Source of the DNA: Bacillota bacterium
Lineage (GTDB): Bacteria; Bacillota; Sulfobacillia; RBS10-35; JAJYVN01
DNA: 52,212 nt
Assembly: GCA_021791815.1 (NCBI GenBank)
Contig: JAJYVV010000003.1
Span: 1-52,212, forward strand
Reading direction: 5' to 3'
Below, one piece after another: positions 31,696 through 50,691 of the stretch; the first letter of the stretch is position 1, and every line of letters begins with the position of its first letter. The position numbers and the translations under genes were made by a program. The notes beneath the pieces were generated by a model, which was given only the letters and a program-made list of their open reading frames with translations, ran no database searches and had not been told where the DNA came from.

Positions 31696-32163
31696 TCAGA
31701 CGGGGCCGGCGCCGTCCCGCGGAGCGGCATGGCCCGCGGCCGACCACCAGTCCGGAAGGTGGATGCCACTGCGCTGGAAATCGCGGGTGTTCCGCGTGAA
31801 GACGCGTCGCGGGCCGCGCACCGCCGCCGCGGCGGCGAGGTAGGCGTCCACGAAGTCCGCGCCCCCGTCCGCGTGAATGGCGAGGGCTTCGACGACCACG
31901 TCCCACTCGGGGCAGACGATCCCCGGCAGCGACAGGAACGATTGGAGCGTGGCGGCCACCTCGGCCGGCCGATGCCCAAACGCCTTGGACTCCAAGACCC
32001 AGACGCATTCCGCCACCACGAGGGCGGGCACGACGAGGAGCATGTGCTCCCCGGCGCGCTCCACCAGCGCGCGTGCCCCCGCCGCCAACTCCGCGGGAAC
32101 GCCCGCAATGAAGTACACGACGACGTTGGTGTCGAGCAGTCCATGCTCGTGCGCTTCATGCAC
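31696..32163 (-). CDS. PIN-domain (VapC-like) toxin
   Basis: LLDTNVVVYFIAGVPAELAAGARALVERAGEHMLLVVPALVVAECVWVLESKAFG...ADFVDAYLAAAAAVRGPRRVFTRNTRDFQRSGI; GTG start overlaps the antitoxin stop. Confidence 0.87.
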   Translation of the reverse strand: MHEAHEHGLLDTNVVVYFIAGVPAELAAGARALVERAGEHMLLVVPALVVAECVWVLESKAFGHRPAEVAATLQSFLSLPGIVCPEWDVVVEALAIHADGGADFVDAYLAAAAAVRGPRRVFTRNTRDFQRSGIHLPDWWSAAGHAAPRDGAGPV

Positions 32164-32434
32164 GGGATGGGTCCTCGTCCGCTCGATCCCGCGCGGCGAG
32201 CGCCGTGCGGGCCTCTTCATACTCGCGGCGGGCCGCGGCGAGCGACCAGCCGGGATCTCGCGGAGGCAGCGACCCGAAGAGGTCGCCTGCGGCCGCCACG
32301 CGCAAGGCCGTGAGGGTCGCCTGCCCGGGCCCCGTGACGCGGACGACGACGGTCCCGCCCTCCGTGAGGCCGATCGCGTCGCGCACCTCCTTCGGGATCG
32401 TGATCTGACCGTTCCGCAACACTTTGGCGGTCAT
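32156..32434 (-). CDS. AbrB/MazE-type antitoxin
   Basis: MTAKVLRNGQITIPKEVRDAIGLTEGGTVVVRVTGPGQATL swapped-hairpin domain; overlaps toxin gene by 8 nt. Confidence 0.9.
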   Translation of the reverse strand: MTAKVLRNGQITIPKEVRDAIGLTEGGTVVVRVTGPGQATLTALRVAAAGDLFGSLPPRDPGWSLAAARREYEEARTALAARDRADEDPSRA

Positions 32435-32538
32435 GGGCTGTAGTTCCCCCCTCCGGTAGCATATCCGGAGGGTCAGATTGGGGCCAGGGTCCTCGTCCCG
32501 CGGCGCGCGTGCCGCCGCGCGTGATCCCCGGAACCGCG

Positions 32539-34938
32539 ATGCCATCCGCGGCGTCCATCCCGGCGGCGGAGGTGGTCGGGGTGCACCGTCCCGGGCGGTG
32601 GGCGCTGGCCCGCCGGGTCGCGGCGGTGCCGTTCGCCCTGGCGGTCGCGGGGTGCGCGGCCGCTCCGGCGTCCCAGAGGGCGCATTCGCCGCGGCCGCCC
32701 ATCGGCACCCCGGGCTCCCGCTCCCCGGGCTCCGCTCCCGCGCCCACCTCCTCCAGCACCGCCACGCCCACCGCCGCGGCGTCGTCCTCTTCGATCGCGC
32801 CGCCCCCCGCGGCGTCGGCGATGCCCGCCCTGCCGGTGACCCTGGGGCCGGCGGCGAGCATGACGCCGCCTCCCGCCTACATCCCGACCCTGCGGTTCAC
32901 CGACGCGGCGTTCCCATCGGCCGCCGACGGCTGGGCTTCGGGGGTGGCCACGCCCGGCTGCGGCGGCATGGGCAGCACGCGCACGGCCACGGGCGGCGTG
33001 ATCGAGGCCACGACCGACGGCGGCGCCACGTGGACCGTGCAGTACCAGGGTCCGGACGCCGTGCTGGCACTGGCATTCGCCGATCCGCTGCACGGGTGGG
33101 CCATCGCGGTGCCGGCGGCCTCCATCTCCGCGTGCAGCGCGCTTCCATCGCCGGGCCAGCTGGCGGGCCAGGTCCTGCTCGCGACGACGGACGGCGGGCA
33201 CACCTGGGCCGCGGTCGACACCGACGCCGCCGGCATCGACGCCCTCTCCTTCTCGGGAGCCGAGCACGGCTTCGCCGGCCGGACGGGATGTCCGGGCTCG
33301 ACGCCGCCGGGGGCCGCCGGATGCGGCGGCGGCCTGCTGCGCACGACGGATGGGGGGCGCACCTGGCAGGCCGTTCCTTCGGCGGATCCGCCGGTGGGCG
33401 GCGCCGGCCTCCCGCTTCCGGTCCTGGCGGTGACCGCCGCCGGAGCCAACCTGTGGGCCCTGGAGGCGGGGCCCACCGGCGGGACAAGTCCCGCCGGGCC
33501 GGCCGGCGTCGCGCGCGTGATGGCCAGTGCCGACGGCGGCGCTTCGTGGTCGCCGGGGGGCACGCTGCCCCTGGCGGACCCGGGGGAGGGCGCCGGGGCC
33601 GTCGGCGCACTGGCGTTCAGCTCTGCTGCCGTGGGCTATGCGAGCGTCTACGCCCTGGGGTCGTGCGCAATGGCGGGGTGCGGCGTCAACGCCGTGTTCC
33701 GCACCGCCGACGGCGGCGCCTCGTGGAGCGTGGTCACCGCGGGCCAGCCTCGCTGTAACGTCGCGCGCCCCGCGCTGGCGGCCACGTCGGCGGAGGCGCT
33801 CGTGGCGCGCGGCGTCAACCTGGCGGCGTGCGCGGGTCCGCAGACCACGCTGGTGCGGTCCACGAACGGCGGGGCGACGTGGAACGCCGCAACGACATGG
33901 TCCGAGCTCGGGCCCGTGCGCCTGCTTGCGCCGCCGGGCGGCGCCGCGACGTTCTGGGCCGTGTCCGGCCCGGCGCTGCTGCGCTCGGCCGACGGCGGCG
34001 CCACCTGGGCGCAGGTGCTGCCCGCGCCCGCGCCCACGGCCGCCGTGGAGTTCCTCTCGCCCACGGTGGGCTGGGGCGTCGGCACGGTCTCGGACCCGGG
34101 CGCCGTCCTCCGCACGTCCGATGGCGGGCGCACCTGGTCCGTCGCCGCCTCGTTCGCGGGCGCCGAGCTGTCCGGGGTCAGCTTCGCGAGCGCCCGCGAC
34201 GGCTGGGTCGTGGGCGCGACGCCGGCATGGGACCCGCAGTCCGGCACCGGCCTGCTGGGGCACACGGCCGACGGGGGCCGCACGTGGGGTCTCGCCGCGC
34301 CGGCGGGCTCCGGCGCGGCGGCCCCGCCGGCGAGTCCCATCCCCAACGCGGCGGCCGTCCGGTTCCTGTCCGCCCGGGACGGCGTCCTCATCGGCCTCGG
34401 CGCGAGCTCGGCCTGCTCGTCGGGCTGCCCGCCGCCCGACCTCTTCACCAGCGGCGACGCCGGCGCGACGTGGCGGTCCTCCGGCGCGGTGCCCAGCCCC
34501 GGGGGCCTTGCCGCCGCGGACATCACCAGCACCGGCGCGGTGTGGGGCGTCTGGGGAGGCGGGGCGGGCTGCGGCCCCGTCCTCCGCGAGGGGGCCGGCG
34601 CGCCGGCCCGCTGGACGGCGCTCGGCTGCCTCTCCGGGCTGTCCTTCGCCGGCAGCCCGCAGGTGCAGTTCGCATCGCCGGCGCAGGGCTACGCGGTCCT
34701 GCTGCAGGTCCTGCGCCCCGTCGATCCGGGGAAGCGCGCCGCGGTCACGCGCCCGCTCCTGCTGTCCACCGCGGACGGGGGCCGCACATGGACCGCCGCG
34801 CCGCTGCCCCTGGCGGCCGACGACTGGTTCGGCAACAGCCTGTTCTTCCTCGATCCGGGCCACGGCTGGCTGCTCAGCGGCGGCGCCGTCTGGGAGACCA
34901 CCGACGGCGGTGCGCACTGGACGGGTCTGGCGTTCTGA
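32539..34938 (+). CDS. YCF48/BNR multi-repeat beta-propeller lipoprotein
   Basis: Lipobox region FALAVAGCAAAP; about 12 Asp-box-like motifs (TTDGGATWTV, TTDGGHTWAA, TTDGGRTWQA, SADGGATWAQ, TSDGGRTWSV, TADGGRTWGL, STADGGRTWTA, TTDGGAHWTG). ORF opens at 32509. Confidence 0.85.
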   Translation: MPSAASIPAAEVVGVHRPGRWALARRVAAVPFALAVAGCAAAPASQRAHSPRPPIGTPGSRSPGSAPAPTSSSTATPTAAASSSSIAPPPAASAMPALPVTLGPAASMTPPPAYIPTLRFTDAAFPSAADGWASGVATPGCGGMGSTRTATGGVIEATTDGGATWTVQYQGPDAVLALAFADPLHGWAIAVPAASISACSALPSPGQLAGQVLLATTDGGHTWAAVDTDAAGIDALSFSGAEHGFAGRTGCPGSTPPGAAGCGGGLLRTTDGGRTWQAVPSADPPVGGAGLPLPVLAVTAAGANLWALEAGPTGGTSPAGPAGVARVMASADGGASWSPGGTLPLADPGEGAGAVGALAFSSAAVGYASVYALGSCAMAGCGVNAVFRTADGGASWSVVTAGQPRCNVARPALAATSAEALVARGVNLAACAGPQTTLVRSTNGGATWNAATTWSELGPVRLLAPPGGAATFWAVSGPALLRSADGGATWAQVLPAPAPTAAVEFLSPTVGWGVGTVSDPGAVLRTSDGGRTWSVAASFAGAELSGVSFASARDGWVVGATPAWDPQSGTGLLGHTADGGRTWGLAAPAGSGAAAPPASPIPNAAAVRFLSARDGVLIGLGASSACSSGCPPPDLFTSGDAGATWRSSGAVPSPGGLAAADITSTGAVWGVWGGGAGCGPVLREGAGAPARWTALGCLSGLSFAGSPQVQFASPAQGYAVLLQVLRPVDPGKRAAVTRPLLLSTADGGRTWTAAPLPLAADDWFGNSLFFLDPGHGWLLSGGAVWETTDGGAHWTGLAF

Positions 34939-47217: not shown

Positions 47218-48747
47218 GTGCCCATCGGTGGCGGCGACGGGGACCGGCGGCGAGCGGCGGATTCGCCCGCGCCGGAGCGGGTGCGCTTGGCCCAAGACCC
47301 GGCGGCCGCCGCGCTGCCGGCGCGCGCGGCGCGGAGGGCGCGGGCGCACACCGCCCCGGTCAACGTGCCGCTGGTCCTGGCGGGGCTCGCTGGAGCGGCC
47401 GGCCTCCTCGTCACGGGCATGCTGCTCGGAGGCATCGTGCGGCCCGCGGGTGGGTCGGCAGCCGCGGGCGCCGGCGCGCCAGGCGCCGCCAGTGCCCCCG
47501 CCGGCCCTGGCGGCAGCGCTGCGGCGGCCCGGGCGCAGGCCGATGCCTCGACCGCCGAGTCGCAGGCCGCGCAGGCGGAGGCGGTCACGGCCCAGGCCGA
47601 GGCGCTGCTGCAGGCGGCCCAGTCCGCCTCGGCCCAGGTGGGCCGCCTGGCGACGGCCAGCCTGGCCCGCAATCCCGCGGCGACGAGCCCGTCCGCGGCG
47701 CTGCAGCCCCTCGAAGCCGACGACACCCAGCTGGTGGCCCTGGTGGCTCAGGCGCAGCAGGCGTCGGCCGCCGCGTCTGCGGCCGCAAGCGCCGCCGCCG
47801 CGGCGGACCCCGGCGCGGACGCCGCCGTCAGCGGCGCCGACGCCGCGGGGAGCCGCGCCCAGGCCGCCGTCCAGCAGGCGCAGGCGGCCGGCGCCCAGGT
47901 CGGGACGCTGGTCGCGCAGGCGGAGGCCGAGGTCCAGGCCTGGGCCTCCGTGCACGCGGCGGCGCCCGGCTACTTTGGCGCGACCGTGGAGGACGTGCCG
48001 GCGTCGTTCGGGGTCCCGGGATGCGAGGTGGACGCCGCCGCGCCCGGCAGCCCGGCCGCCGCGGTGGGACTGGTGGGCCGGACGCAGCGCACCGACCCCG
48101 TCGGCGACGTGGTCACCTCCGTCACGGACGGCACGGACGGAGGGGCCGTGTGGCCGGTGGCCGACTGCGCCGCCTTCGTCGCGGCCATGGCGCAGACGCG
48201 GGCCGGTGACCAGGTCACCGTGGCCTACTACCACCGCCAGGTGATCTGGTACGAGCTGTCTGGCCGGTGGGTGCTGGAGTCGGGGACCGCGACCCTCACC
48301 GCCGCGCCGGGGAGCAACTGCCCGGCGCCGATCGCCGGCACCATCAGCCCTGCGCTGACCGGCAACCGCATCAACCTGACGATCGCGCTCGTCGGGCCGC
48401 AGGGGAGCCGTGCGGGGTTGGGCGTGATGCTCGACACCGGCGGCGTCCAGTCGTACTTCCCCGACGCGCTCCTGCGGAGCCTGGGATACCGCCCGTTCCT
48501 GGCGACGCTCGCCGGCGGCATCGTCCCCGGGGCGATGGGGGCCGCCAACCTCTACCGCATCCCGGGGGCGGCGCTCACCGCCCTGGACGGTGGACGCTAC
48601 GTCCCGCTGGCCACGGGCACCCTGACGGTGATGGGCGTGGTCAACGGGACGCTCTCCGGCCTGGGCCCGGACATCCTCAAGCAGGGCGCCCGGCTGACGA
48701 CGGCGGGCGGCCGCTGGACCTTGACCCCGCCATGCCAGGCCGGGTAG
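47218..48747 (+). CDS. Membrane-anchored protein with Ala/Gln-rich linker, PDZ-like and retropepsin-like domains
   Basis: One TM (VPLVLAGLAGAAGLLVTGMLLGGIV), long Ala/Gln-rich region, PDZ-like GYFGATVEDVPASFGVPGCEVDAAAPGSPAAAVGLV...GDVVTSVTDGT, then GVMLDTGGVQSYFPDALLRSLGY...LSGLGPDILKQGARLTTAGGRWTL. Confidence 0.7.
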   Translation: MPIGGGDGDRRRAADSPAPERVRLAQDPAAAALPARAARRARAHTAPVNVPLVLAGLAGAAGLLVTGMLLGGIVRPAGGSAAAGAGAPGAASAPAGPGGSAAAARAQADASTAESQAAQAEAVTAQAEALLQAAQSASAQVGRLATASLARNPAATSPSAALQPLEADDTQLVALVAQAQQASAAASAAASAAAAADPGADAAVSGADAAGSRAQAAVQQAQAAGAQVGTLVAQAEAEVQAWASVHAAAPGYFGATVEDVPASFGVPGCEVDAAAPGSPAAAVGLVGRTQRTDPVGDVVTSVTDGTDGGAVWPVADCAAFVAAMAQTRAGDQVTVAYYHRQVIWYELSGRWVLESGTATLTAAPGSNCPAPIAGTISPALTGNRINLTIALVGPQGSRAGLGVMLDTGGVQSYFPDALLRSLGYRPFLATLAGGIVPGAMGAANLYRIPGAALTALDGGRYVPLATGTLTVMGVVNGTLSGLGPDILKQGARLTTAGGRWTLTPPCQAG

Positions 48748-49538: not shown

Positions 49539-50008
49539 CGCAGCCGTGCGCGGACGCCATGGACGCGATCGCGGCGGTGGCCCGCGGCCGGGCGCCGGAC
49601 GTCGGGCCGGGGGTCCGCGCCCACCTTGCGGGATGTCCGAGGTGCCGGGGGGCCTACGCCCACGCCGCCGCGTGTGCGCCGTGGCTCGCGGCCGGCATCG
49701 TGGACGACGCCGGCGGCGCGGCCCACCGGGAGGCCTCCTCCGCCTGGGAGCGGCGGCTGTTCCTCCGCCTCCTGGCCGAGGAGAGGGCGTCGGGCACGCC
49801 CGGGCCCCGCCCGGGCCCCGACGCCCGGGGCCGCCGCGCGGTGGGGCCCGCGCGCCACGGGCCGGCTCGCGGCGATTCCGGCCCGAGACCGCGCAGCCCG
49901 GCATGGGCGCGCCTGGCCGCGTGGCTCGGCGGCTGGGAGACTGGACCCGAGGAAGGGGAGTGGCGGCGGTGGCGGCGGCGGCCGGAGGCGGACGCAAGCC
50001 CACGATGA
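49535..50008 (+). CDS. Zinc-finger (HxxxCxxC) putative anti-sigma factor
   Basis: VRAHLAGCPRCRGAYAHAAAC; GTGA overlap with the ECF sigma gene; no obvious TM helix. Confidence 0.65.
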   Translation: MTQPCADAMDAIAAVARGRAPDVGPGVRAHLAGCPRCRGAYAHAAACAPWLAAGIVDDAGGAAHREASSAWERRLFLRLLAEERASGTPGPRPGPDARGRRAVGPARHGPARGDSGPRPRSPAWARLAAWLGGWETGPEEGEWRRWRRRPEADASPR

Positions 50009-50691
50009 CGGTCACCGTGGCGTCGGGTGAACGCCTGGGGGAGGTGCGCCTGCGAGAGGACCCTTGCGTCTTCGCGCGGTTCGAGAAGGGCGCGTCGACG
50101 GGGTGGCTCCAGTACGTCGCGGGCGCGCTGTTCCAGGTGCACCGCACGTACTATGTCGCGGAGGTCGACTGGGACGGCCGGACGCTCCACGAGATCGAGG
50201 TCGAGTACTACGAGCCGGAGTTCCCGGACGCGCGGCTCTGGATGCAGTGGTATGTGGAACAGACGGACGAGGCTTGGCGGCTCGTGTGGTGGGGCCAGCG
50301 CTACCCGAACGCCACCGCGGAGCTCCGGCCCCAGGGACGGCTCATGCCGCGAGTACTCCGGCCCGGCGCGGCGTCGGGCGACCACGCCGTCGACGCCGAC
50401 ACCTACATCCTGGATAACGGCGGCGGCAAAAGGGTCCCCTGCCTCCGCCTCTGGGAGGGCCGCGGCGACGGCTTCCGGGAGTACTTCATCGATGGCCAGG
50501 GCGACTGCCTCTACGGCCGGTACTGGACGGCGTCCGGTGCGGCGCCCCCGGCCGGTCCCCAAGCGGACCAGGCCATGGAGCGCGAGGGCCGGCGCCACGT
50601 CCTGGCGTGGGAACAGATCCCCCACAGGATGATGTGGGCGGTGTGGGCGCGCGACCCGGAGACGGCCCGCAACGGCGACCCCGGGCGGTGA
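50005..50691 (+). CDS. Hypothetical protein in ECF sigma operon
   Basis: ATGA overlap with upstream gene; aromatic/acidic sequence GWLQYVAGALFQVHRTYYVAEVDWDGRTLHEIEVEYYEPEFPDARLWMQWYVEQTDEAWRLVWWGQRYPNATAE, no family recognised. Confidence 0.75.
   Translation: MTVTVASGERLGEVRLREDPCVFARFEKGASTGWLQYVAGALFQVHRTYYVAEVDWDGRTLHEIEVEYYEPEFPDARLWMQWYVEQTDEAWRLVWWGQRYPNATAELRPQGRLMPRVLRPGAASGDHAVDADTYILDNGGGKRVPCLRLWEGRGDGFREYFIDGQGDCLYGRYWTASGAAPPAGPQADQAMEREGRRHVLAWEQIPHRMMWAVWARDPETARNGDPGR

Follow-up and report, generated by a model that had tools for sequence, protein, structure and literature searches.

Our analysis suggests that the gene at positions 47218–48747 (forward strand) of the window, by which we mean the whole 52,212-nucleotide stretch of Bacillota DNA studied here (contig JAJYVV010000003.1), probably encodes a retropepsin-like aspartic protease that carries an HtrA-type PDZ domain and is tethered to the membrane on its extracytoplasmic side. 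The computation supports the identities of the two domains, an order in which the PDZ domain precedes the protease, a conserved DTG motif, one transmembrane (TM) helix and a predicted helical bundle between the membrane and the PDZ domain. The protein belongs to a known kind of protease, of which it is a conserved variant, confined to its lineage and unusual in its domain order. Its catalytic activity and its dimerisation we infer by analogy.

The gene is an intact open reading frame of 509 amino acids with a GTG start. The start agrees with the homologues: in genomes G005 and G009 a conserved cytoplasmic motif opens at the same V-P-[IL]. This motif, VPIHINPEEIRGLGPEARAQIEEAL, begins at the shared VP in both genomes, the remainder is not retained in the window protein, and the N-terminal VPIHINPEE motif is limited to a few homologues. 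Compared with the orthologue in G005, which is 78–79% identical across PDZ domain and protease, the frame is under purifying selection (dN 0.156, dS 0.83, dN/dS ~0.19 for this part; dN 0.30 and dS 1.36 for the Ala-rich part). One could argue that the frame is an artefact, a low-complexity, high-GC stretch with PDZ-like and DTG-like words that arose by chance. The window is indeed GC-rich, with many long spurious open reading frames on both strands, and no database model matches the window sequence. However, a chance frame with an orthologue at 79% identity, such a low dN/dS, relatives in 19 of the 154 genomes of the class (whole-genome searches, E ≤ 0.001) and a confident predicted fold is hardly conceivable, and we regard this explanation as refuted by the conservation data.

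Searched alone against Pfam and NCBIfam, the window protein gave no useful match, and the retropepsin and PDZ assignments run through its homologues and the predicted fold. The retropepsin-like (clan AA) domain spans residues 368–506 (48319–48735, forward strand). Asp_protease_2 (PF13650) matches 12 of the 22 protease sequences, with a best E of 8e-6, and in a whole-genome search two of its matches lie above the curated cut-off (G121:C42 and G009:C38). The gag-asp_proteas model and NCBIfam clan_AA_DTGF (1.4e-4) also matched among the homologues, and an hmmsearch of the family profile against PDB sequences weakly recovered candidapepsins, Ddi1 and the EIAV protease. The strongest PDB profile match (E 1.2e-4) was to the surface-anchored protein 4mkm. 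We treated it as chance because it is confined to the part that follows the flap, consists of weak stretches and is absent from the listed fold matches.

AlphaFold2, run on the alignment of the 19 PDZ-bearing members (A1), gave a model with a mean pLDDT of 88.9. The pTM of this first model was 0.55, and the arrangement of PDZ domain and protease relative to each other is therefore uncertain. With Foldseek, the model matched the EIAV protease in the PDB (E 2.1e-3, probability 1.00, TM 0.61 on the target), followed by pepsins, APRc of Rickettsia and the FIV and HTLV proteases, so that the top ranks were all aspartic proteases. The top probabilities were mostly 0.96–1.00, with PDB E-values of 2e-3, not under 1e-3. 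In a viral library, a phage aspartic protease ranked first, and retroviral and pararetroviral proteases were also among the top matches. A second model, built from 10 sequences, repeated the clan AA top matches. Both predicted structures thus place a retropepsin-type fold around LDTGG and support such a fold for the C-terminal domain.

The DTG catalytic motif (D406-T407-G408) is encoded by GAC ACC GGC at 48433–48441 (forward strand), exactly where the original prediction had put it; the catalytic Asp is D406 and not D407, as had been stated there. In its context MLDTGG (48427–48444), two hydrophobic residues precede the D[TS]G. The residue that follows is Gly in the window protein and in nine other members, and Ala in seven. 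According to the usual motif definition, S, T or A should follow D[TS]G (PMC4140852). The Gly concerns a motif position and not the fold, and we therefore call the protein retropepsin-like rather than a strict member of MEROPS A2. The GLGPDIL that had been noted downstream is present as well: LGPDIL, residues 482–487 (48661–48678, forward strand), is the putative equivalent of the downstream hydrophobic-hydrophobic-Gly motif of the psi loop. Homologues have LLG, VVG or LIG at this site, followed by P-D-[IV]-L, where the window protein has GLG. The window protein thus departs slightly from the textbook at two points, DTGG and GLG in place of hydrophobic-hydrophobic-Gly, where the standard residues are found in other members. 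Between the two motifs, GGIVPGAMGA (48514–48543, forward strand; G[VIL][VI]PGA in the family) folds as a beta-hairpin in the model (strands E178–183 and E190–199, with G184 and G188 invariant in A1) and is a putative flap.

The DTG is kept in 17 of the 19 PDZ-bearing members (DTGG in 10, DTGA in 7). It is also found in a permuted relative (L035), and the PDZ-less L036 has DSG in its place. DSG for DTG is an allowed exchange in aspartic proteases. Two PDZ-bearing copies with intact frames have lost the motif, L006 (G012:C112; DPAG) and L014 (G009:C214; EPAG), and in L034 (G002:C111), a PDZ-less protein of the window's own family, it is replaced by RPSG. All three retain the rest of the fold signature, and L014 compared with L006 has a dN/dS of ~0.33, which means that purifying selection persists. 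Since L006 and L014 persist without DTG, some members of the family function with no catalysis.

Such DTG-less paralogues make a binding-only role the main rival of our interpretation. The window protein would then be a non-catalytic surface protein for binding or sensing, its fold being kept to bind peptides or to form dimers, and its DTG being a relic or structural. We consider this improbable, because the motif is the rule across the families of the class, mostly kept even in relatives of only 41–61% identity, because L036 retains a DSG, and because L006 and L014 form one small clade in the tree of protease domains, as expected of a derived loss. In genus g10, paralogues with and without DTG occur together (about five loci in G009). 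The genome of the window itself contains a 67-aa remnant (L002, G000:C167:11340-11540) that matches the end of the protease domain with 43% identity and is probably a decayed paralogue. It also encodes another short retropepsin-like protein with DTGA (L070, G000:C171:17674-17952; Asp_protease_2, 52 bits).

The PDZ-like block of the original prediction turned out to be an HtrA/Deg-type PDZ domain, residues 251–360 (47968–48297, forward strand). No PDZ model matches the window sequence itself. PDZ_2 matches 11 of the 19 PDZ-bearing homologues (best E 3.1e-4), and in the PDB a profile of this part found HtrA/Deg-type serine proteases (best E 2.4e-4). The family consensus has the features of these domains, namely a GxLGV start, PGSPAA-GL, a GD(V/I)I core and the order of beta strands and alpha helices. 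Invariant positions are, in domain numbering, G18, C19, E20, G46, D47 and C67.

The window protein has four Cys, 269 and 317 in the PDZ domain and 368 and 506 around the protease, and all four are unchanged in the 19 members of A1. It had been noted that two Cys bracket the protease-like part, and this holds throughout the PDZ-bearing family. The invariance of both pairs is consistent with disulfides in an extracytoplasmic protein: C269 may pair with C317 within the PDZ domain, and C368 with C506 around the protease.

That a PDZ domain precedes the protease had been considered unusual. The same order, with the PDZ domain at 251–360 and the protease at 368–506 in the window protein, is found in all 19 members of A1, and the class contains other orders as well. 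L082 and L094 are built as protease-protease-PDZ (in L082, Asp_protease_2 at 218–304 and PDZ_6 at 380–420), each with a second, earlier DTG, and we infer that their two protease halves form a pepsin-like pseudo-dimer in one chain. L035 (G125:C30) consists of zinc ribbon, TM segment, protease and PDZ domain. Its PDZ domain is 50% identical to that of the window protein, the flank of its TM segment resembles that of L005 and L052, and its protease domain groups, on long branches, with L036 and L097, two zinc-ribbon proteins that lack a PDZ domain. Taken together, the 19 PDZ-first members, L082 and L094, and L035 show that the PDZ-first order is real and that the modules were joined in more than one order. 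L035 (L035:886-2367), L036 (L036:415-2127) and L097 (L097:1306-2289) make up another set of retropepsin-like proteins, which are anchored by a TM segment and begin with a segment that resembles a zinc ribbon; the zinc-ribbon Pfam matches in L035 and L097 are under the cut-off.

The N-terminal part of the window protein begins with VPI and a predicted cytoplasmic segment, residues 1–47 (47218–47358, forward strand), with nine K/R against five D/E. The single TM helix that had been predicted follows at about residues 50–71 (47365–47430, forward strand); it is the only hydrophobic segment, and the best 19-residue hydropathy, 2.20, falls on residues 52–70. The predicted topology is N-in/C-out. Several homologues have a lipobox-like or signal-peptide-like N-terminus in place of the TM helix, on account of which the C-terminal part would lie outside the cell.

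The next 175 residues are 42% Ala and 11% Gln. This segment had been described as an Ala/Gln-rich, helical stalk of about 170 residues. Composition and helices stand, but the segment is probably a three-helix bundle and not a straight stalk: AlphaFold2 on 10 homologues predicts helices at 98–144, 159–196 and 201–247 (47509–47958, forward strand), with pLDDT mostly 89–98. Foldseek matches to this module, to Smac/DIABLO and further helical bundles, have E-values of 0.3 or weaker. The loop between helices 1 and 2, ARNPAATSP (47665–47691, forward strand), carries a conserved motif, AR[NDQ]PxAxxP, in which A, R, P, A and P are invariant in all 10 module-bearing homologues. L055 has the same module with ordinary composition, not Ala-rich, and hence the Ala/Gln-rich segment seems to be a conserved folded module in its high-GC version. 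Nine members (L007, L008, L010, L016 and L029–L033) lack the module and have other or short N-terminal regions instead. These come after a TM, signal-peptide-like or lipobox-like N-terminus, and this variety of secretion-type N-termini also supports an outside location.

Besides the relatives in the class, one more (L019) was found on contig JAJYSZ010000065.1 of a Bacillota metagenome-assembled genome. A sample of 399 genomes of the phylum contained no additional PDZ-protease member, and, as far as this sample covers the phylum, the two-domain family seems to be confined to the class. The sample did contain short PDZ-region matches and a PDZ-less DTGA protein in G258. The latter (L045:1471-2013, G258:C69) is small (181 aa) and secreted-looking, has an Asp_protease_2 match above the cut-off and adjoins a gene that resembles a repetitive phage tail/pectate-lyase-type protein. 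No relatives were found in plasmids searched with the window domains, in a phage collection searched with the G258 protein or in viral contigs searched with both.

How could the protein work? In single-domain retropepsins two chains pair to form one shared active site. By analogy, two chains of the window protein would pair and their two D406 would form one active site under the GGIVPGA flaps. The helical bundle would keep the catalytic head at a distance from the membrane and may aid pairing. The PDZ domain could bind C-termini or strands exposed on envelope proteins, or on the protein's own chain, and present or gate them; in this way it would contribute substrate selection or gating. Disulfides C269–C317 and C368–C506 would stabilise the secreted part. 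Such a protease would probably process proteins of the envelope or surface or serve in their quality control. One could go further and imagine a class-restricted surface system in which the HtrA-like PDZ domain, mounted on a dimer-forming bundle, gates the retropepsin as an aspartic counterpart of DegS/HtrA, and in which L006 and L014, as pseudoproteases, pair with active copies and tune them. This more elaborate scenario is speculative, and we think it quite unlikely to be right as a whole.

The characterised proteins closest to the window protein are APRc (RC1339) of Rickettsia conorii and RloA1-3 of Pseudomonas aeruginosa. APRc is a retropepsin-like protease embedded in the membrane (PDB 5c9b, 5c9f); it is a dimer, is active at pH 6 and loses autolysis when the catalytic Asp is mutated (PMC4140852). 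Like the window protein it has an N-terminal membrane part, a C-terminal single-domain retropepsin predicted to lie outside, and a DTG, and it is one of the top PDB fold matches of the family model. Unlike the window protein, it has three predicted TM segments, and the part of the source considered describes no PDZ domain or helical bundle; it has DTGA and LLG where the window protein has DTGG and GLG (PMC4140852). RloA1-3 are secreted, dimeric retropepsins whose DTG lies at the dimer interface; the secreted members have a disulfide (PMC12239564). They share with the window protein, judging from its predicted location, an extracytoplasmic single-domain retropepsin. They differ in being signal-peptide enzymes and RimB homologues; the paper makes no mention of PDZ, and the part considered describes no TM anchor or helical bundle. 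Their disulfide connects the C-terminal tail with the strand that follows the flap (PMC12239564). In the window protein the putative Cys pair brackets the domain instead.

PDZ-containing bacterial aspartyl proteases have been catalogued as the “AP family” and are functionally uncharacterised; like the window protein, they combine a PDZ domain with clan AA domains (PMC6411480). The window protein does not have the protease-then-PDZ architecture seen in L082 and L094, its PDZ domain being N-terminal to the protease. In these two, two protease halves are followed by the PDZ domain, whereas in the window protein the PDZ domain is followed by a single protease and a helical bundle is added. L035 resembles it in its related PDZ domain and its DTG, and differs in having zinc ribbon, TM segment and protease before the PDZ domain. 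No PDZ-first single-domain retropepsin with a helical bundle is described in the sources covered, a small part of the literature. Few bacterial retropepsin-like proteases have been characterised, and this family joins PDZ and retropepsin domains in both orders within one bacterial class, together with a helical module and DTG-less copies. It could offer a clean biochemical test of PDZ control over a dimeric aspartic protease outside the cell.

HtrA and DegS are trypsin-like serine proteases with the PDZ domain after the protease and a catalytic fold unrelated to retropepsins. The window protein resembles them in its predicted membrane anchor and extracytoplasmic protease and in its PDZ domain, which is of HtrA type according to the PDB profile matches. 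Upstream of the gene lie genes for a GNAT acetyltransferase (opposite strand) and an alpha/beta hydrolase; downstream are genes for an ECF sigma factor (PF04542, PF08281) and a zf-HC2-like anti-sigma factor. It is tempting to see in this a DegS-like site-1 protease, whose PDZ domain senses envelope damage and whose protease cleaves the neighbouring anti-sigma factor: the gene is directly upstream of the pair, and TM anchor, PDZ domain and protease resemble DegS in parts. Yet at none of the homologue loci examined, including 3.7 kb downstream in G005, are ECF sigma, anti-sigma, GNAT or hydrolase genes neighbours. The anti-sigma protein lacks a TM segment (its best 19-residue hydropathy is 0.98) and would be out of reach of an extracytoplasmic protease. 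Given both observations, a DegS-like role on this pair is very unlikely. Neighbourhoods are shared little beyond pairs within genera, which is why we set the ECF link aside.

The gene after the sigma/anti-sigma pair (49990–50688, forward strand) has no Pfam match and is a possible third member of that operon. Elsewhere in the window there are a DDE transposase (PF01609; 20566–22308, reverse strand) and a pair of PIN-domain toxin and MazE/AbrB-type antitoxin genes (31696–32545, reverse strand). G125 has a similar toxin-antitoxin pair close to its L035 protease locus (L060:10118-10790).
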